The notes beneath the pieces are model-generated. The model searched no databases. It was not told the origin of the DNA and saw nothing but the letters and a program-made list of their open reading frames with translations. A program made the position numbers and the translations under genes. From NCBI GenBank assembly GCA_025361125.1, contig JANYBM010000022.1, positions 1 through 64,000 of the forward strand: a stretch of 64,000 bases of DNA, in the 5' to 3' direction. Below, piece by piece: positions 9,541 to 19,770 of the stretch. The DNA comes from Holophagaceae bacterium (GTDB lineage Bacteria; Acidobacteriota; Holophagae; Holophagales; Holophagaceae). Within the stretch, counting starts at the first letter, position 1. Every line of letters starts with the position of its first letter.

Positions 9541-10290
9541 TCAACCATTCATCCGGGATCGCAGGATATCTACCAATCCACCGCCATTGGCCAGGGCCTG
9601 CACGAGAGCGCTGCCGATGACAGGCGTCGCGCCCATGGCCCGCACTTCGGCCATGGCCGCGGAATCGCTCAGACCGAAACCCACCGCCAGCGGGCGGTCA
9701 GAGATGGCTTTCAAAGCCGCCACTCGCTCTCTTACCGGTGCGAGGTCCGTGGTATCGCCGGTCCCCGTCACACCCAGGCGGGCCACCACGTAAGCGAAGC
9801 GTTGGGCAAAAGGGTGACCTGGCCCGGGATCAGGACGCCGTTCCAGAAGGCCCTTGGCCCGTTCGATATCCGTGGTGGGGGAAAGGAGGGGAATCATGGG
9901 GAAACCTGCGGTCCGTAGCTTAGCTTCGAATTCCGCTTCCTCGGAATCAGGCAGATCCACCACCAGCAAGGCTTTCACGGGTGTAGGCCACAGCAGGTCG
10001 AGCAAGCGATCTGCGCCGATCTGCAGCAAGGGATTCAAGTAGGTGAAGAGGATCAGGTCGGGACTCTCCGTCAATCCGGCCAGCATTTCGAGCACGCGCA
10101 AGGGTGTGGCGCCCCGCTGGATGGCGCGGTGGGCCGCAGCCTGAAGCACGGGGCCATCGGCGATGGGATCGCTATGGGGCAGCCCGATTTCCAGTGCCTC
10201 GATGCCCAAAGCCTTAGCTTCGGCAAGGAGTTGCGGCAAGGCTGCGAGGGATGGGTCACCGGCCATGATGAAAGGAAGTAGTTTATTCAT
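9541..10290 (-). CDS. trpA: Tryptophan synthase alpha chain
   Basis: Cleaves indole-3-glycerol phosphate to indole and glyceraldehyde-3-phosphate and channels indole to TrpB. 249 residues, slightly short for the family. It has the catalytic region ALEIGLPHSDPIADGPVLQ near residues 35-52 and the phosphate-binding region near the C-terminus (GFGLSDSAA and VIGSALV). It is the last gene of the trp operon, 12 bases after trpB. The inverted repeat at 9494-9537 follows the stop. Confidence 0.95.
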   Translation of the reverse strand: MNKLLPFIMAGDPSLAALPQLLAEAKALGIEALEIGLPHSDPIADGPVLQAAAHRAIQRGATPLRVLEMLAGLTESPDLILFTYLNPLLQIGADRLLDLLWPTPVKALLVVDLPDSEEAEFEAKLRTAGFPMIPLLSPTTDIERAKGLLERRPDPGPGHPFAQRFAYVVARLGVTGTGDTTDLAPVRERVAALKAISDRPLAVGFGLSDSAAMAEVRAMGATPVIGSALVQALANGGGLVDILRSRMNG

Positions 10291-10302
10291 ACTTTTTGTT
10301 CC

Positions 10303-11490
10303 TTAAATACCGAGTTTAGATTGGTATGTGGATAGATCCTTGTCTCCACGTCCCGAGAGCCCCAGGAGAACCGTGGCGAAACCTCGTTTCGCCAACTCCG
10401 GAAGCAAGGCCAAGGCGTGGCTCGATTCCAGCGCGGGCAGGATGCCTTCGGATTCGCAGAGCCATTGGGCCGCCTCCAAGGCCTGGGCATCCGATGCGCG
10501 CAGCACTTCAATTTTCCCATCCAAGGCGAGCGCCGCCAATTCCGGCCCCAACGCTGGGTAATCGAGGCCTGCACTGATGCTGGCTGTCTCCGCAGTATGA
10601 CCGTGCTGGTCCTGCAGCAGGAGCGTCTTGCACCCATGCAGTACGCCCAGGCGCCCGCCATCCAACCGCGCGGCATGTTCGCCCAGGGCCGACCCATGCC
10701 CTCCAGCTTCCACCGCGAATCGGTGCAGATCATCCCCCAGAAAAGGCACCAACAGGCCAAGACCATTGCTGCCGCCCCCCGCGCAAGCGATGACCGCATC
10801 CGGCAAAGAGACGGTCTGTTCCAGCATCTGGGCCCGGGCCTCCTCGCCGATGACCGTTTGAAAGGTGCGCACCATAGTTGGAAAAGGATGGGGACCCAAG
10901 GCGCTGCCAAGGATGTAATGAGCCTTGTCGCAGCGCGCAGCCCAAGCGCGGAGGGCTTCGTTCACAGCTTCCTTCAGGGTCCCCTGCCCTGCTTCCACTG
11001 GCACTACTTTTGTGCCGAAAAGCCTCATACGGGCCACGTTCGGGGCCTGTCGGGCCATATCAGTCACGCCCATGTAGACCGTGCATTTCAGCCCCAACCT
11101 GGCGCACGCGGCGGCGGCGGCCACGCCATGCTGGCCCGCGCCGGTTTCGGCGATGATTTCCGACTTGCCCATCCGTCGCGCGAGCAGAGCCTGGGCCATG
11201 GCGTTGTTGATCTTATGAGCACCGGTGTGGGTGAGGTCCTCGCGTTTGAGAAAGAGGCCTTGCAAGCCAAACTTCGCCGCCAATCGAGTGGCCGAGGTAA
11301 GAGGAGTCGGGCGGCCTACGAAATGACGTAATTCGCTCTTTAATTCGACCCGGAAAGAAGGATCATCCAAAGCCATCCGAAAGGCTTCTTCAAGATCCAG
11401 CAGCGGCTGCATCAGGGTTTCCGGCGCGTAGCATCCACCGAGCCCCCCGGTGCCGAATCGCGTGGGAAGCAGGAACTCAGTCGCGTGCAT
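10303..11490 (-). CDS. trpB: Tryptophan synthase beta chain
   Basis: PLP enzyme that condenses indole with serine to give tryptophan. 395 residues, the usual size of the TrpB1 class. The Schiff-base lysine is in THTGAHKINNA near residue 90; GRPTPL, ETGAGQHG and the glycine-rich phosphate cup CAGGGSNG are present. The start overlaps the end of trpF by 14 bases, which implies translational coupling. The partner subunit gene trpA follows directly. Confidence 0.97.
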   Translation of the reverse strand: MHATEFLLPTRFGTGGLGGCYAPETLMQPLLDLEEAFRMALDDPSFRVELKSELRHFVGRPTPLTSATRLAAKFGLQGLFLKREDLTHTGAHKINNAMAQALLARRMGKSEIIAETGAGQHGVAAAAACARLGLKCTVYMGVTDMARQAPNVARMRLFGTKVVPVEAGQGTLKEAVNEALRAWAARCDKAHYILGSALGPHPFPTMVRTFQTVIGEEARAQMLEQTVSLPDAVIACAGGGSNGLGLLVPFLGDDLHRFAVEAGGHGSALGEHAARLDGGRLGVLHGCKTLLLQDQHGHTAETASISAGLDYPALGPELAALALDGKIEVLRASDAQALEAAQWLCESEGILPALESSHALALLPELAKRGFATVLLGLSGRGDKDLSTYQSKLGI

Positions 11491-12124
11491 AGTGGGCCTC
11501 GCTGGACAAAGTCTTAGCGGTTTGAATGAAGGCCTTGACCTTCAAGGGATCCTTGATGCCTGGTGAACGCTCCAAGCGGCTGGCGGCATCGAACCCCCGG
11601 AACTGGATTCGTGCTTCAGCTGGGCAAAGTGCCGCCCGTTCTCGCAGGTTTTGAGTATGGAGTCCGCCCGCCAACAAGAAGTCTCCCGGTGGCGGGAAAG
11701 TCATGGCGTGGGTTTGCCCGGAACCACCTACCAGACCCGTGGCTTGAGGATTCGACTCCCAGATGTAAAGGTCTATTGGAATGGGCATTGTAATGGGCAT
11801 TGCGCCTTGCTCATCACTCCATGGAAGCAAAATGAAATAACCTTCTGCTTTTAATCGTTGAACTACGGCTGCCCGATATTCAGAGGACACATGGGGCTGA
11901 ATGTTCCGTATGCCCGCAACGCTCGCCAATCTTATGATGGCCTCGGCGTCATCCGAAACCATGACCAGCACGGCCTGGTCGCGCACTTCAGTGGTTGCTT
12001 CGGCCAGATCCGCACAATGTCTCGGGCTGGGCGGATGCACGACGAAGCCTAAATAATCAGCGCCTTCGGCGGCGGCGAAGGCGGCATCGGCGGCATTGGT
12101 AAGGCCGCAGATTTTGACTTTCAT
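11477..12124 (-). CDS. trpF: Phosphoribosylanthranilate isomerase
   Basis: Isomerises N-(5-phosphoribosyl)anthranilate to the ribulose phosphate form, the third step of tryptophan synthesis. 215 residues, a standalone TIM barrel not fused to TrpC. MKVKICGLTN holds the catalytic Cys; the C-terminal FRGFDAASRLE carries the usual Asp and SPGIKD follows. The ATG overlaps the trpC stop as ATGA. The 14-base overlap with trpB is at the other end. Confidence 0.94.
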   Translation of the reverse strand: MKVKICGLTNAADAAFAAAEGADYLGFVVHPPSPRHCADLAEATTEVRDQAVLVMVSDDAEAIIRLASVAGIRNIQPHVSSEYRAAVVQRLKAEGYFILLPWSDEQGAMPITMPIPIDLYIWESNPQATGLVGGSGQTHAMTFPPPGDFLLAGGLHTQNLRERAALCPAEARIQFRGFDAASRLERSPGIKDPLKVKAFIQTAKTLSSEAHYARD

Positions 12125-12966
12125 AAAGCCACGCGAGTTTTAGAGCCAACCAAAATCCGTTCCAGGAATCCTTTGGGATTCGCGCTGCGCATGAGGGCCT
12201 CGCCCATAAGCACGGCATCGAAGCCTGCCATGAATGCCTTTACCGCATCCTCGGGCGTAGCAAGACCCGATTCACGAATCAGCACCGCGTTTGGAAAGGC
12301 TTTTCTGAGCGGCGCAGCGCTGGGCGCTCCAAGCGTGAAAGTCGAGAGATCTCGCGCATTGATGCCAACAAGTCGGGCTTTGGCAGCCTGGGCCACAGGA
12401 ATTTCTGTCAAGTCATGCAGTTCCACAAGCGGCTCCAACCCCAAGGCCCGCGCGCCGTCGGCAAAGATGGCGGTGGCTTCCTTCAAAACGCGGGCGATGA
12501 GCAGCACAGCCCTGGCACCGGAGGCGGCAGCGTCGAAGAGATGCGCTTCGGAGATCACGAAACCTTTGTAGAGGCTTGGCACTCCAAGTTCTACAGCCTG
12601 GGCTAGATGTCTGCTTGAACCCAGGAAATAACGAGGTTCGGTGAGGATCGAGAAACACGCGGCGCCACCTTCCTGGTAGGCGATCAGTTGTTCCCGCAAG
12701 GCTGTGCCCGCCGCGAAGGGTCCAAGCGAAGGTGAGCCCTGCTTGAATTCCGCGATGATGGCGCAGCCTTCTCGCACATGGCTCTCACGCAGAGCTGATT
12801 CGAAGGGACCAGCCTGGTGCGCGGACAAGGGTTCCCTTTCGGAACCGGCTGCTGATGGCAATTCACTGATCCGCGCCAACTCGGACAGCAGCACCTTTTG
12901 AAGGTGTGAGCTGGGGGCCAGGCCAGTGCCCTGCACCAGCTCCTCAGGATTCGGGAATGCGCTCAT
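12121..12966 (-). CDS. trpC: Indole-3-glycerol phosphate synthase
   Basis: Closes the indole ring of the carboxyphenylamino-deoxyribulose phosphate intermediate. 281 residues. Signatures: IAEFKQGSPSLGPF near residue 90 (the catalytic Lys region), a modified VGINARDLSTF, and SGLATPEDAV with FDAVLMGEALM near the C-terminus. Its ATG shares one base with the trpD stop (TGATG) and its stop overlaps trpF as ATGA, so translation is probably coupled through all three genes. Confidence 0.95.
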   Translation of the reverse strand: MSAFPNPEELVQGTGLAPSSHLQKVLLSELARISELPSAAGSEREPLSAHQAGPFESALRESHVREGCAIIAEFKQGSPSLGPFAAGTALREQLIAYQEGGAACFSILTEPRYFLGSSRHLAQAVELGVPSLYKGFVISEAHLFDAAASGARAVLLIARVLKEATAIFADGARALGLEPLVELHDLTEIPVAQAAKARLVGINARDLSTFTLGAPSAAPLRKAFPNAVLIRESGLATPEDAVKAFMAGFDAVLMGEALMRSANPKGFLERILVGSKTRVAL

Positions 12967-13997
12967 CAGCGGGCCTCCGCATTGGTTGGAAGCGGCAATG
13001 AGAACCCGCCTTCAAGGGAGTCCTTGGCTTCACGAAAATAATCTGGTACACGATCCAGTCCCACATCGCGATGCAGCACCAACCCCAGCGCCACTTGAAG
13101 CGCCACGCCATCGGCTATGGCAGGGCGGAAGTCGGGATGTTTGGAGCCCCCATGAAGGCCCCTGGCCACCCTCAGCGCTTCAGCCCGGTCGTGCACGCGA
13201 AGAGCGTTCTTGGCTGGCTGCGGAATGCCCAGCTCGCGCGGGACCAGCACCTGCAAAGGCTCCAGAGCGCCATCATGAATTTCAATGACCATGGTCGGCC
13301 CTTCAATGGACGCCTCATCCAGGCCCCGGCCTTCGGCGTCCTTCCCGTGAACTACGAAGGCCCGTTGCACGGAACTCTTCGCGAGCGCGCCCGCCATGGG
13401 CTTCAACAAGGCTTCTTTCGCCACGCCCAGAAGCTGCAGTTGCGGCTTCCCAGGATTTAACAGTGGACCCAAGAGATTAAAAATTGTGGGGATGCCAAGG
13501 CGCTTGCGGATCTCCCGCAGGCGGCCCAACAGCGGGTGATAGGCGGGTGCGAAGAGGAACGCGAAACTCCGTTTCCGAAGATCATCCACCAACTGTTCTG
13601 GAGATCGGGCCAGGTCGTAGCCCAGGGCCTCCAGCAGGTCCGCCGAGCCGCACAGGCTCGTGGCCGCACGATTGCCATGCTTTAGCACCGGCACGCCAAG
13701 ATGCGCCAAGTGCAAGGCCGCAAGTGTGCTCAAGTTGGCCGTGGATGCGCCATCTCCGCCGGTGCCGCAGGTATCCAGCACGCGCATTCCCGAATCGGGA
13801 AAGGGAATGGCGACTTCCTGCAAGGCCTCGGCGAAGGCCGCCAATTCTTCGGCTTCGGGAACCCGTTGGGCCAGCAGCGCCAGGCAGGCGCCCACCAGCA
13901 GCGCGTCGGTGTCCTGGTCAATGAAGGTCTTCATCAACTCCCTTGCCGTGATGTGCGGCAAGGGTTGGATAGGGTTGTGGGTGGTGAGCAGAGTCAT
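12966..13997 (-). CDS. trpD: Anthranilate phosphoribosyltransferase
   Basis: Transfers phosphoribosyl from PRPP to anthranilate. 343 residues, typical of standalone TrpD. The PRPP/Mg signature VLDTCGTGGDG is near residue 75 and KHGNRAATSLCGSADLLEAL near 105. Its ribosome site GGAAGGA is strong, which fits a start 39 bases after trpG rather than an overlap. TrpG is separate here, unlike the TrpGD fusions of enterobacteria. Confidence 0.96.
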   Translation of the reverse strand: MTLLTTHNPIQPLPHITARELMKTFIDQDTDALLVGACLALLAQRVPEAEELAAFAEALQEVAIPFPDSGMRVLDTCGTGGDGASTANLSTLAALHLAHLGVPVLKHGNRAATSLCGSADLLEALGYDLARSPEQLVDDLRKRSFAFLFAPAYHPLLGRLREIRKRLGIPTIFNLLGPLLNPGKPQLQLLGVAKEALLKPMAGALAKSSVQRAFVVHGKDAEGRGLDEASIEGPTMVIEIHDGALEPLQVLVPRELGIPQPAKNALRVHDRAEALRVARGLHGGSKHPDFRPAIADGVALQVALGLVLHRDVGLDRVPDYFREAKDSLEGGFSLPLPTNAEAR

Positions 13998-14036
13998 GAG
14001 GGATCCTTCCGACTAAGAGCTAAAAAACATGAGCTA

Positions 14037-14615
14037 TCAGCCATGAACAACACCGGCCAGTTTCAGAAAATTTTTCAGCAGGGCCGGGCCATCAGGAGTG
14101 AGGATGCTTTCCGGGTGAAACTGGACGCCCCAGCGGGGCAACGTGGCATGTTCGATGGCCATGATCTCGCCGCCTGGACTCGTCCCCGTCACACGCCAAC
14201 ACGCAGGCAGGGTCAATGTTTCCGCGATGAGGCTGTGATAACGGCCGATAGGGAAGTCCTGGGGCAGGCCTGCAAAAACCCCCATGCTTTCATGTCGCAG
14301 CGGTGTGGCCTCGCCATGAAGGGGTTCCAAGGCGCGGACGACCTTGCCTCCAGTGGCCGCCACAAGCGCTTGATGCCCCAGGCAGACCCCCAGCACAGGG
14401 ACTTTCCAATCGCTCCCGGCGATAGCCATATGGCCTGGACTTTCACTAGGATGACCCGGGCCCGGCGACAGCACCACGGCTTCGGGATTCATGGCCTTCG
14501 CCTCATCAAGCGCGATGGCATCGTGGCGCACCACGCGGACTTCGGTGCCAAGGGTTTCGAAGGCCTGCACCAGGTTGTAGGTGAAGCTGTCGAGGGCATC
14601 AATCAGCAGGATCAT
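14037..14615 (-). CDS. trpG: Anthranilate synthase component II (glutamine amidotransferase)
   Basis: Supplies ammonia from glutamine to TrpE. The frame is open upstream, but the family start MILLIDALDSFTYNL is at 14615, where the ATG overlaps the trpE stop as ATGA. This gives 192 residues, normal for a class I amidotransferase. The nucleophile is in VLGVCLGHQAL and the catalytic His-Glu pair in WGVQFHPESI. The operon position makes the tryptophan role more likely than a folate PabA role. Confidence 0.96.
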   Translation of the reverse strand: MILLIDALDSFTYNLVQAFETLGTEVRVVRHDAIALDEAKAMNPEAVVLSPGPGHPSESPGHMAIAGSDWKVPVLGVCLGHQALVAATGGKVVRALEPLHGEATPLRHESMGVFAGLPQDFPIGRYHSLIAETLTLPACWRVTGTSPGGEIMAIEHATLPRWGVQFHPESILTPDGPALLKNFLKLAGVVHG

Positions 14616-15991
14616 CTCTCCATCTCCGAAAGATTCACGCCCAGGGCTTCGGCGACTGCGCCCATCTTCTGCAACGTCTCGCGGTATTCCGAAGCTGGAT
14701 CCGAGGCCCGCACGACACCTGCTCCGGCTTGCAGGTAGGCCGCTCTGTTCGCGTAGATCGCTGTGCGCAGGATCAGCGCGGTATCCAATACGCCATCGGC
14801 GCCGATGCGCACCAAGGCGCCGCCGTAAGGACCGCGCATGTCGCCTTCCAGTTCGGCGATGCGTTGACAGGCCCGCAGTTTCGGCGCGCCGCTTACTGTT
14901 CCCGCCGGGAAGCACGATGCCAGTACATCCAGCGCATCCAGGCCCTCCTTCAGCTTCGCCTTCACGGTGGTGGTGAGGTGCAATACGTGGCTCGTGCGTT
15001 GTGAAGCTAATGGCTTTTCCACCCGCACGCCGCCCGGCACGGCAATACGGCCCAGATCGTTGCGTGCCAGGTCCACGAGCATCTGGTGTTCGGCCAGTTC
15101 CTTGGGATTGCGCTTCAGCGCTTCGAATCGTTCGGCGTCTTCGTCATCGCTGCCGCCCCGGGCCACCGTTCCTGCTATGGGCAGTGTCTCCGCCTGCCCC
15201 TCGGACACGCGCACCAGCATTTCCGGGGATGCGCCGACGAGGGCGAAATCATCCCATTCCAGCAGGAAGGCATAGGGGCTGGGATTGAGACGCCGCAGGC
15301 GTCGGTAGGCCTCCAGGGGCGAGGGCGGATCCTCCACTCGAACGCGATGGCTGGGCACCATCTGGTAGACGTCACCATTCAGGATCCGCTCCTGGATGGC
15401 CTTCACGAAGTCTTCGTACTGTGCCTGGCTGACCTGGGCGATGGCTTGGGTCCGGTGCGCCGGTTCCACCGGCGTAGCGAAATGTTTCAACAGTTCAGCT
15501 AGTTCATCCAGCCGTGCCATGCCTTCGCTTGGATCGCCGCAAAGCACCTGCAATTCGGCCACCTGATGCAGGTGATCAATCACCAGGGCGGCGTCGAAGC
15601 GCCGCATCCACACGGTCGGAAGCCCCAGGCTATTTTTGGCGGGCAAGGGTAGGCTCGGTTCCAGTGCGACGATGGCCTCGAAACCCACATAGCCCGCGCA
15701 ACCCACGCCGATGGGAAAGGCATCGCGGGGGCCGGGGAGATCCGCCCGGGCGTCCGATTCACTTTGTAAAGTGCCAATGGACGCCAGCCCTCGCAGCGCC
15801 TCGACCCAGCCCATTCCAGGCGGCTCCAGGCGGACTTCGTCCTGGCCTTCCAGCAGCACAAAACTATGGCGGCCCACCCGCTCGCCCAGGTCGCAGGATT
15901 CCAGCAAAAGGCTGGCGCCAGCGTGCTTCAAGGCAAGAAAGGCCGAGAGGGGGGTGATGAGATCCGCGGGAAGCAGGCGGCGCAGCAGCAT
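14612..15991 (-). CDS. trpE: Anthranilate synthase component I
   Basis: Converts chorismate to anthranilate with TrpG. About 459 residues from the ATG at 15991; a TTG at 16006 would add five residues but lies against the terminator T-run. Chorismate-enzyme motifs are plain: PIAGTVARGG, DLARNDLGRIA, and FPAGTVSGAPK near the C-terminal third, then GPYGGALVRIG and AGAGVVRASDP. The N-terminal tryptophan feedback region is expected around LLLES (residues 29-33 from this start), which fits the LLES element of feedback-sensitive TrpE. It is the first structural gene of the operon, directly downstream of an attenuator. Confidence 0.96.
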   Translation of the reverse strand: MLLRRLLPADLITPLSAFLALKHAGASLLLESCDLGERVGRHSFVLLEGQDEVRLEPPGMGWVEALRGLASIGTLQSESDARADLPGPRDAFPIGVGCAGYVGFEAIVALEPSLPLPAKNSLGLPTVWMRRFDAALVIDHLHQVAELQVLCGDPSEGMARLDELAELLKHFATPVEPAHRTQAIAQVSQAQYEDFVKAIQERILNGDVYQMVPSHRVRVEDPPSPLEAYRRLRRLNPSPYAFLLEWDDFALVGASPEMLVRVSEGQAETLPIAGTVARGGSDDEDAERFEALKRNPKELAEHQMLVDLARNDLGRIAVPGGVRVEKPLASQRTSHVLHLTTTVKAKLKEGLDALDVLASCFPAGTVSGAPKLRACQRIAELEGDMRGPYGGALVRIGADGVLDTALILRTAIYANRAAYLQAGAGVVRASDPASEYRETLQKMGAVAEALGVNLSEMER

Positions 15992-16005
15992 GATGGGTGT
16001 GTCCA

Positions 16006-16040
16006 AATAAAAAAGCCCGGGTCCACATGGGAACCGGGCT
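16006..16040 (-). terminator. trp attenuator terminator
   Basis: In the operon direction AGCCCGGTTCC, loop CATGT and GGACCCGGGCT form an 11-bp stem with one mismatch, followed at once by six T residues. It ends about 15 bases before the trpE ATG, which is where an attenuator terminator should be. The left arm overlaps the antiterminator arm (16038-16048). Confidence 0.88.
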
Positions 16041-16087
16041 CGGAAGGGAGAAAAAAATCAGCTAGGTAGTAGCGTCCCCATCCGAGC
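16038..16087 (-). promoter_or_regulatory. trp antiterminator pairing
   Basis: On the transcript GCTCGGATGGG (16077-16087) can pair with CCCTTCCGAGC (16038-16048): seven perfect pairs, a mismatch and three more. This uses bases of the terminator left arm, so the two structures exclude each other. The first arm starts only 7 bases after the Trp codons. TCCGGCA (16130-16136) could pair with the same arm with one bulge, acting as the protector hairpin. Confidence 0.78.
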
Positions 16088-16148
16088 AGCCGCGCCACCA
16101 CCAACCCAGATAGGCCGCAGGAGCGAAAGTGCCGGAAACGAACGTCAT
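16062..16148 (-). CDS. trpL: trp leader peptide with three tandem Trp codons
   Basis: A 28-codon reading frame beginning ATG ACG TTC and ending TAG. Residues 16-18 are Trp-Trp-Trp (TGGTGGTGG at 16095-16103). An in-frame ATG at 16157 could add three residues. It reads straight into the antiterminator and terminator in front of trpE. The expected role is to stall the ribosome when charged tRNA-Trp is scarce, so that the antiterminator forms and the operon is transcribed. No good Shine-Dalgarno site is visible; GAG about 9 bases upstream of 16148 is the best. Confidence 0.85.
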   Translation of the reverse strand: MTFVSGTFAPAAYLGWWWRGCSDGDATT

Positions 16149-16155
16149 GAAAACC

Positions 16156-16185
16156 ATCTCAGCAGCAAGGATGGGGCTGTGTCAA
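16156..16185 (-). promoter_or_regulatory. Candidate trp operon promoter
   Basis: A perfect TTGACA (16180-16185 on the minus strand) is followed after 18 bases by TGAGAT, a weak -10. Transcription from it would begin very near the leader ATG, so either the leader is almost leaderless or the real -10 lies elsewhere. Confidence 0.4.
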
Positions 16186-16759: not shown

Positions 16760-17761
16760 ATGCCTGATGATTCCTTCCCTTCCGACGCGCTACCTGAACG
16801 ACCTAACACTATTCATACCCAGGACCCTTTGAATCCAAGGGGTCCATGGAGCTTCATGAGGGAAGCTATCGGTGGCGGGCTTTCGAAATGGTCCTGGCAG
16901 CTCATGGCGGCCTGGGTGGCCTTCCAGGTGCTCACTAGCTTTGTGTGGGCCCGGCATCTGGGCGGTTTTGCGGCCTTTGGAAACCCTACCGGGGGCAGCG
17001 TACTTCCGAATAATTGGGGCGAGCATCTCACGGCAAGAGATATCTGGGAGCTCATGGAAAATGGGGGTATGAAGCACGAACCGTTTGGCTCGATGGTGCC
17101 GCTGCTCGCGCTTCTCTGTCTGATGTGGGTGTTCTGGTCGGGATGGGCCATGCAGGCTAACTGCCTGGGTTTCCCGCCGCGCTTAAAGCACTGGGTGTTA
17201 GGTCTGCTGGACGCCCTTCTTCTTGGGTTTTTGCCTTTGGGAATCGTATTTGGTCTGGCACGGTGGGCGCTGTCCACCATGGGTTCCACGGGTATCCAGG
17301 GCCTGGGTTGGGTGTCGTTCGTGGGGACTCCGCTCCTCTTCATGGCCTTTATTTCAGCCCTCAACCTTCAATGGTGGCTTTGCCGGATGGACCGCGCAGC
17401 AGGGTCCACTGGATTGCTGCGTCACTGGGGCCGCAGTTTTCTACGGCTTTGGATGAACCCAGTGCAATGGACGAGCCTGGTGCTTGCCGGGGTGATGCTG
17501 CGGGCGGGACTCGCCTTTCTGGCGATCTGGAGCGGCTGGCGCCTTGGCGGAGGGAGCACTTCTAGAGTGGAGTTGTTGCTTCTGCTGGAGCTGCTTTCCG
17601 CAGGGATCAATGCTTGGCTACTGGGTTGGTTTCTGCGTCTGACAGCCTTGTTCTGGAAGCAGGATGAAAAGGTGCGAAACGTGAGATTGGAATTGGAAGT
17701 GGCCAGGAAAATGGCCGTGACGGTTGAGTCACTGGAGATGGGCGGAACCAATGAGGCTTGA
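16760..17761 (+). CDS. Multi-pass inner-membrane protein of unknown function
   Basis: 333 residues with about six hydrophobic segments, for example MAAWVAFQVLTSFVWA, LLALLCLMWVFWSGWAM, LLDALLLGFLPLGIVFGLA and LLLLLELLSAGINAWLLGWF. No family recognised. The first 40 residues are hydrophilic. The start at 16760 has no clear ribosome site; an ATG at 16856 with GGAG upstream is a serious alternative. The stop overlaps the start of the next gene by 11 bases, so it is probably co-transcribed with the split 5'-nucleotidase pair. Confidence 0.75.
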   Translation: MPDDSFPSDALPERPNTIHTQDPLNPRGPWSFMREAIGGGLSKWSWQLMAAWVAFQVLTSFVWARHLGGFAAFGNPTGGSVLPNNWGEHLTARDIWELMENGGMKHEPFGSMVPLLALLCLMWVFWSGWAMQANCLGFPPRLKHWVLGLLDALLLGFLPLGIVFGLARWALSTMGSTGIQGLGWVSFVGTPLLFMAFISALNLQWWLCRMDRAAGSTGLLRHWGRSFLRLWMNPVQWTSLVLAGVMLRAGLAFLAIWSGWRLGGGSTSRVELLLLLELLSAGINAWLLGWFLRLTALFWKQDEKVRNVRLELEVARKMAVTVESLEMGGTNEA

Positions 17762-18608
17762 AATTTCTATCCTGGCGCTCGCGCTTGCGCTCTCCCCCCT
17801 GGCTTGCCAAAAAGCAATGGTGGCGCCAAAGCCCAGCTCAACCATCAGCCAATCCGAAAATCCGAGGCCCGCTCCTCAATTGCTCCAGGCCCAGACCATG
17901 GGAGTGATCCAGGATTTTCTGGATGACCCAGGCATCATGACGATTCTTGCGCCCAAACAGGCCGAGATCAAAGCCACCTTTGACCTGCCCCTATGTGCGT
18001 GCCCCAAAGGGCTTTTTCGAGGCCGCAACGGGGAGGAAAATCTTTTGGGCTATTGGGTTACGGACATCATGCGCGCCCGCGCAGCCCTGTTGATTGGCAG
18101 GCCCGTGAAGTTCGCCCTGACCAACAGTGGTGGGCTTCGCGCCAATTTGCCCGCGGGCCAATTGAAAGTGTCCGATATGTACGGTGTCATGCCCTTCGAA
18201 AACGAACTGGTGACCCTCGAGATGACCGGCCAGGACGTGATGGACGCCGTCAAGCAGGGCATCCTTCATCGTGGAAGCGAACCCAGTTCCGGTGTGAAGT
18301 TGGTCTTGTCAGGGCCCGTGGACAAACCCGAATTCCTGATCACCTGGGAGGATGGGGCGGCCATCAAGCCTGACGAACCCGTCACGGTGGCCACCACGGA
18401 TTACTTGTATAACGGTGGCGATTCCATTCCCGCCCTGAAGAAAGGCCGTCGCCCCTTCACCACGGGTGTATCCATGCGCCAGATGCTGTTGGACGCCTGC
18501 GGAGACTTGGCCAAAGCCGGAAAGCCCTTGGAAGCCCCTGCCCTGGGCCGTTACAAAATCACACCTGAGCTGTATAACGCCGCTCGCGATCACAAACTTG
18601 GGCATTGA
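17751..18608 (+). CDS. 5'-nucleotidase C-terminal domain lipoprotein
   Basis: A 285-residue lipoprotein: a short hydrophobic signal ends in SPLAC, a good lipobox. The mature part is the nucleotide-binding C-terminal domain of UshA-type 5'-nucleotidases, shown by FALTNSGGLRANLPAGQL, VMPFENELVTLEMTGQDVMDAV and YLYNGGDSIPAL. On its own this domain lacks the metal centre, so it needs the metallophosphatase encoded next door to act on extracellular nucleotides. The start overlaps the previous gene. The two-gene arrangement inverts the usual N-to-C domain order. Confidence 0.88.
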   Translation: MRLEISILALALALSPLACQKAMVAPKPSSTISQSENPRPAPQLLQAQTMGVIQDFLDDPGIMTILAPKQAEIKATFDLPLCACPKGLFRGRNGEENLLGYWVTDIMRARAALLIGRPVKFALTNSGGLRANLPAGQLKVSDMYGVMPFENELVTLEMTGQDVMDAVKQGILHRGSEPSSGVKLVLSGPVDKPEFLITWEDGAAIKPDEPVTVATTDYLYNGGDSIPALKKGRRPFTTGVSMRQMLLDACGDLAKAGKPLEAPALGRYKITPELYNAARDHKLGH

Positions 18609-18609
18609 A

Positions 18610-18641
18610 AAGTTGAGAAGTTGAGAAGTTGAGAAGTTGAA
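18610..18641 (+). repeat. Tandem 8-bp repeat, four copies
   Basis: AAGTTGAG is repeated three times and then once as AAGTTGAA between the two 5'-nucleotidase genes; a looser copy follows. GAGAGG just before the next ATG may serve as its ribosome site. Confidence 0.85.
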
Positions 18642-18673
18642 AAGTCTAGAGCTTGAAAGATTGAGAGGCTGCT

Positions 18674-19770
<1,097 letters not shown>

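Follow-up and report, generated by a model that had tools for sequence, protein, structure and literature searches.

A probable ribosome-mediated trp attenuator with a predicted leaderless leader peptide ahead of trpE in Holophagaceae (Acidobacteriota)

The trpL leader of trpE(G) in Sinorhizobium meliloti (rnTrpL, peTrpL) comprises a leader peptide with Trp codons, a terminator, and an antiterminator, all of which recur in the locus described here. The 5' end of its RNA is the ATG of the leader peptide itself, and the attenuated RNA and the peptide act in trans (PMC7298713). In Streptomyces lividans, trpL1 before trpE likewise encodes a leaderless leader peptide with WWW (MFAHSTRNWWWTAHPAAH; PMC8079986). 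Escherichia coli trpL (RF00513) shares with the present leader the order of the parts, the release of arm 2 by a ribosome stalled at the Trp codons, and the masking of arm 2 by a ribosome at the stop position. A survey published in 2010 stated that leader-peptide systems had been demonstrated only in Proteobacteria and Actinobacteria, to which it added Firmicutes, and that the attenuators predicted in Acidobacteria almost all lacked an assigned function (PMC2965389). No account of trp attenuation in Acidobacteria was found in the open-access literature; subscription papers (e.g. Lopatovskaya 2010, cited in PMC4833913) may include some cases.

The window, that is, the whole stretch of 64,000 nucleotides analysed here, belongs to a metagenome-assembled genome (MAG) of Holophagaceae (3.13 Mb, 181 contigs, 92% complete). 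This family is part of Acidobacteriota, and the chromosome is thus acidobacterial, a possibility that a preliminary description made from the sequence had raised. The trp operon trpEGDCFBA lies on the minus strand with trpE as its first structural gene, downstream of the leader (Table 1). The preliminary description had claimed a complete trp attenuator before trpE, and all the parts, their order, and their spacing were confirmed; the strand, which had been unstated, is the minus strand, and a fold on the plus strand was discarded as irrelevant. Translation of trpE probably starts at the ATG at 15991 rather than at the TTG at 16006, judging from the sequence ATG-CTG-CTG-CGC at this position, which is kept in the sister species and is preceded by a weak GGA. 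This ATG follows the final terminator T at a distance of 17 nt. Elsewhere in the window, two adjoining ORFs were noticed on the plus strand (17724-18608 and 18674-19597, together spanning 17724-19597), which by eye resemble separately encoded halves of a 5'-nucleotidase/UshA-type protein.

Table 1 Features of the trp leader and operon in the window.
Feature	Coordinates	Strand	Basis
-35 hexamer TTGACA	16180..16185	-	sequence; perfect in all 41 Holophagaceae leaders
Probable -10 hexamer TGAGAT, 18-nt spacer, ending 7 nt before the ATG	16156..16161	-	conserved position
trpL leader peptide ORF MTFVSGTFAPAAYLGWWWRGCSDGDATT, 28 codons, ATG at 16148, TAG at 16064-16062	16062..16148	-	sequence; conserved in 41 loci
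Three consecutive Trp codons (control codons)	16095..16103	-	sequence; WWW/YWW/WRW/SWW/WFW or similar in relatives
Arm 2, antiterminator 5' arm GCUCGGAUGGGG, within the leader ORF	16076..16087	-	pairs with 16049-16038
Arm 3, antiterminator 3' arm, overlapping the terminator 5' foot (GAGC)	16038..16049	-	alignment and folding
Intrinsic terminator hairpin and six Ts	16009..16041	-	simple terminator scan; 98.5% paired (40 sequences)
trpE	14612..16006	-	NCBIfam TIGR00564, E 6e-117; sole full-length match in the genome
trpG, trpD, trpC, trpF, trpB, trpA (rest of the operon)	9541..14633	-	NCBIfam matches

The 28-residue reading frame with Trp-Trp-Trp, the terminator with six Ts, and the competing arm 7 nt past the last Trp codon were all found where they had been placed from the letters. 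Arm 2 reads GCUCGGA-U-GGGG (16087-16076), and its pairing partner is CUCCC-U-UCCGAGC (within 16050-16038). The terminator stem GAGCCCGGTTCC-CATGT-GGACCCGGGC occupies 16041-16015 (minus strand) and is followed by the T-tract at 16014-16009, with which the simple scan agrees. An alternative start of trpL at the in-frame ATG at 16157 (31 codons) was rejected, as this ATG lacks conservation and shares bases with the predicted -10 hexamer (16161-16156). The Rfam model RF00513 (Trp_leader) scored 22.4 bits on the window leader, below its gathering score of 41, and among 20 acidobacterial loci none attained the cut-off of any Rfam model. Matches of sX11, Betaproteobacteria_toxic_sRNA, and suhB over the terminator were weak, far below their cut-offs, and were dismissed as a bare terminator hairpin. 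Since folding of the window leader as a single sequence indicated an unremarkable stability (z-score of -1.2 against shuffles), the case for an attenuator rests on conservation.

Relatives were collected by TrpE searches, which gave 41 Holophagaceae loci of the window type with the window's own included (genera g1, g4, g5, and g11); two of the leaders were identical, and the alignment, A1, accordingly held 40 distinct sequences. All 41 loci had a trpL frame that opened with ATG, ran for 28-31 codons, and carried two or more Trp codons at the same place, and a terminator lay ahead of trpE in each. The Trp motif was WWW in 23 loci and YWW, WRW, SWW, WFW, or MFW in the others, and the insertions and deletions within trpL preserve the frame, no frameshift being found among the 41. 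One divergent leader (L016:2885-3033, minus strand) reads CTCWCMFWHAG, with separated Trp codons and many Cys and Met residues, and keeps the conserved arm 2 and terminator.

The alignment upstream of trpE also bore out ribosome-mediated attenuation as first proposed, as both helices covary and the Trp codons are retained. The antiterminator comprised 11 pairs, with 96.4% of the cells paired in the 40 sequences versus 24-59% in slid controls. For the 10 pairs of the terminator, 98.5% of the cells were paired, and double changes occurred at four pairs, amounting to 13 double-change cells versus 1.7 in shuffles, a control that ignores kinship, for which placement on the trpE tree corrects partly. 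At the antiterminator pair formed by columns 74 and 129, C-G was found in 29 sequences, U-A in 7, and U-G in 4; on the trpE tree, the U-A state was spread over five separate positions, some of them next to U-G forms. This change swaps a Ser codon (TCG) for a Leu codon (TTG) in the leader peptide, indicating therefore that the pairing, not the peptide, is what is kept. Furthermore, RNAalifold recovered the antiterminator core from the truncated alignment without its being specified. Within the antiterminator loop (columns 88-108), g4 leaders such as L118 have a small conserved hairpin, GGCC-UAGC-GGCC, whose loop contains the stop codon; the window species has GCUA-CUACC-UAGC instead.

The range of such leaders was examined across the phylum in the upstream regions of 80 trpE genes, with roughly one locus for each genus. 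A Trp-containing ORF followed by a terminator was observed before trpE in 7 of the 80 genus representatives (families f21, f28, f35, f41, and f59); among the controls, it was observed in none of 800 Markov-shuffled sequences and in one of 80 reverse-strand sequences. A Trp leader with a terminator was also present in f5, f6, f8, and f9 (L018, L022, L025, and L017), which brings the number of acidobacterial families with similar Trp leaders to ten, f1 counted. Their distribution is scattered, and many other acidobacterial genomes are without one before trpE. In many of these, short frames with Trp codons do precede trpE, but they were left uncounted: most are the end of a long ORF lying upstream, apparently for a shikimate dehydrogenase, and have no terminator. 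The distant Trp leaders of L017, L078, and L112 (f9, f35, and f41) finish with RVGL or RVGR and the stop codon. In L017, the last codons and the stop spell GGGUGGGUCUG, which is complementary to the 5' side of the terminator, CAGACCCAC; the antiterminator arm of L017 seems to include the stop codon, and L078 and L112 look alike. No leader peptides were seen before leuA-, ilvB-, or hisG-like genes in the window's genome, where these genes apparently lie inside operons.

Taken together, these findings make it very probable that the trp leader is a ribosome-mediated transcription attenuator, with a start of transcription predicted on the trpL ATG or no more than one base away. It could be argued that an unregulated intrinsic terminator merely stands behind a short ORF that is rich in Trp by chance, as lone terminator hairpins are common and the window fold is not unusually stable against shuffles. 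However, the Trp codons, the frame, the spacing, and the covarying antiterminator are kept in 41 loci, and the phylum-wide counts exceed those of the shuffled and reverse-strand controls, so that we regard this explanation as highly improbable. A different Trp sensor at work in place of the leader peptide would be in line with other phyla, in which a T-box, TRAP, or TrpR is the main alternative; yet we give this hardly any credence, since the genome has no match to the T-box model (RF00230) and none to the TrpR protein, the absence of a second regulator not being certain in a 92%-complete MAG, and since no GAG/UAG repeat array of the TRAP type was seen by eye in the leader.

The remaining explanation concerns the start of the transcript: the same attenuator might have an ordinary 5' untranslated region, with a promoter further upstream and an incidental spacing of TTGACA. 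The TGAGAT of the window is a weak match to TATAAT, a formal scan gave no promoter within its limits, and versions with a Shine-Dalgarno sequence exist in other genera of the family. Nevertheless, we consider an ordinary untranslated region unlikely in view of the perfect TTGACA and its near-constant distance from the ATG in all 41 loci (31 in 34 leaders and 29-33 in the rest). In 37 of the 41 leaders, exactly 7 nt separate the end of the best -10 hexamer from the ATG, the base preceding the ATG is a pyrimidine in 40, which creates a pyrimidine-purine step, and no Shine-Dalgarno sequence (GGAG, GAGG, or AGGA) occurs within 18 nt upstream of the ATG in any of them. Because of the conserved -10 spacing, the pyrimidine before the ATG, and the absence of a Shine-Dalgarno sequence, we predict a leaderless mRNA, with +1 at the A of the trpL ATG (16148). 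This strengthens the earlier suggestion that the leader peptide is nearly leaderless, and the predicted +1 is upstream of the Trp codons, not downstream of 16095. In bacteria, a TA-like signal about 10 bp ahead of the start codon most probably marks a gene as leaderless, a class to which about 13% of the genes in three acidobacterial genomes were assigned (PMC3160421). In the Holophagaceae genera g6, g8, and g10, the Trp leaders have a Shine-Dalgarno-like sequence instead, and the two modes of initiation therefore appear to have been exchanged within the family.

For the preferred reading, a leaderless ribosome-mediated attenuator, we infer where transcription starts, that the ribosome stalls, and how the operon responds, as follows. 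Transcription would begin at or within one base of the trpL ATG, and ribosomes would load straight onto the 5' end. When Trp-tRNA is scarce, the ribosome would halt on the first Trp codons, so that arm 2 stays free to pair with arm 3; the terminator foot would thus be removed, and the polymerase would continue into trpEGDCFBA. With ample Trp-tRNA, the ribosome would reach the UAG and cover arm 2, arm 3 would enter the terminator hairpin, and transcription would stop at the U-tract.

The switching was modelled by deleting the ribosome-covered stretch (13 nt past the A-site; 11 and 15 nt were also tried) and folding the remainder, with RNA ends before the terminator 3' arm as a proxy for the decision moment. 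In the window leader, the mean probability that the terminator 5' arm was paired upstream was 0.81 when the ribosome was stalled at the first Trp codon and 0.16 when it stood on the stop codon, the former value varying with the footprint (0.92, 0.81, and 0.58 for 11, 13, and 15 nt, respectively). The same calculation with the E. coli trp leader, the sequence of which was confirmed, gave 0.83 and 0.00, and the two leaders thus behave alike in folding for both the stall and the stop. In leaders with just two Trp codons, the stalled ribosome comes close to arm 2, and the outcome depends on the assumed footprint. Because the antiterminator and the terminator of the window species have only four bases (GAGC) in common, the strength of the switch is less certain there than in genus g4, in which the overlap of the helices is longer. 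In the complete transcript of the window species at equilibrium with a first-Trp stall, the terminator core was still largely formed (0.70), indicating partial switching. Equilibrium folding of complete transcripts was abandoned as a proof of switching, in favour of the truncated ones, on account of its poor discrimination; since the terminator wins in most states, also in E. coli, a kinetic switch has to be assumed for both leaders.

The truncated RNA free of ribosomes paired arm 3 upstream with a probability of 0.68-1.00 in 12 Holophagaceae leaders (0.98 in the window leader), versus 0.27 in E. coli. No arm-1 protector sequestering arm 2 in the untranslated leader was found by folding these 12 leaders, and this protector-free behaviour is a prediction only. 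It is possible, and we propose it tentatively, that ribosome-mediated trp attenuation is old and widespread in Acidobacteriota; that the Holophagaceae form is leaderless and protector-free, reads through by default when no ribosome is present, and replaces the pause and protector hairpin of E. coli by fast loading of ribosomes at the 5' end; and that leaderless and Shine-Dalgarno-led forms were exchanged within one family.

The attenuator proposed here would assign a function to acidobacterial attenuators in one whole family and in scattered members of nine others, and it offers an explanation for the control of trp genes without TrpR or a T-box. The leaderless and Shine-Dalgarno-led leaders, moreover, form a natural series for testing how ribosome loading is coordinated with the polymerase. 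The kind of switch is known, and its presence in Acidobacteriota seems to be undescribed. Similarly, a leaderless trp leader peptide is new only for Acidobacteriota, having already been reported in S. meliloti and S. lividans. The S. meliloti leader differs in belonging to Alphaproteobacteria and in its 14-residue peptide, whereas that of S. lividans, from Actinobacteria, has a peptide unlike the Holophagaceae trpL beyond the Trp run. The E. coli trpL, which also encodes a 14-residue peptide, differs in having a Shine-Dalgarno sequence and an arm-1 protector hairpin.
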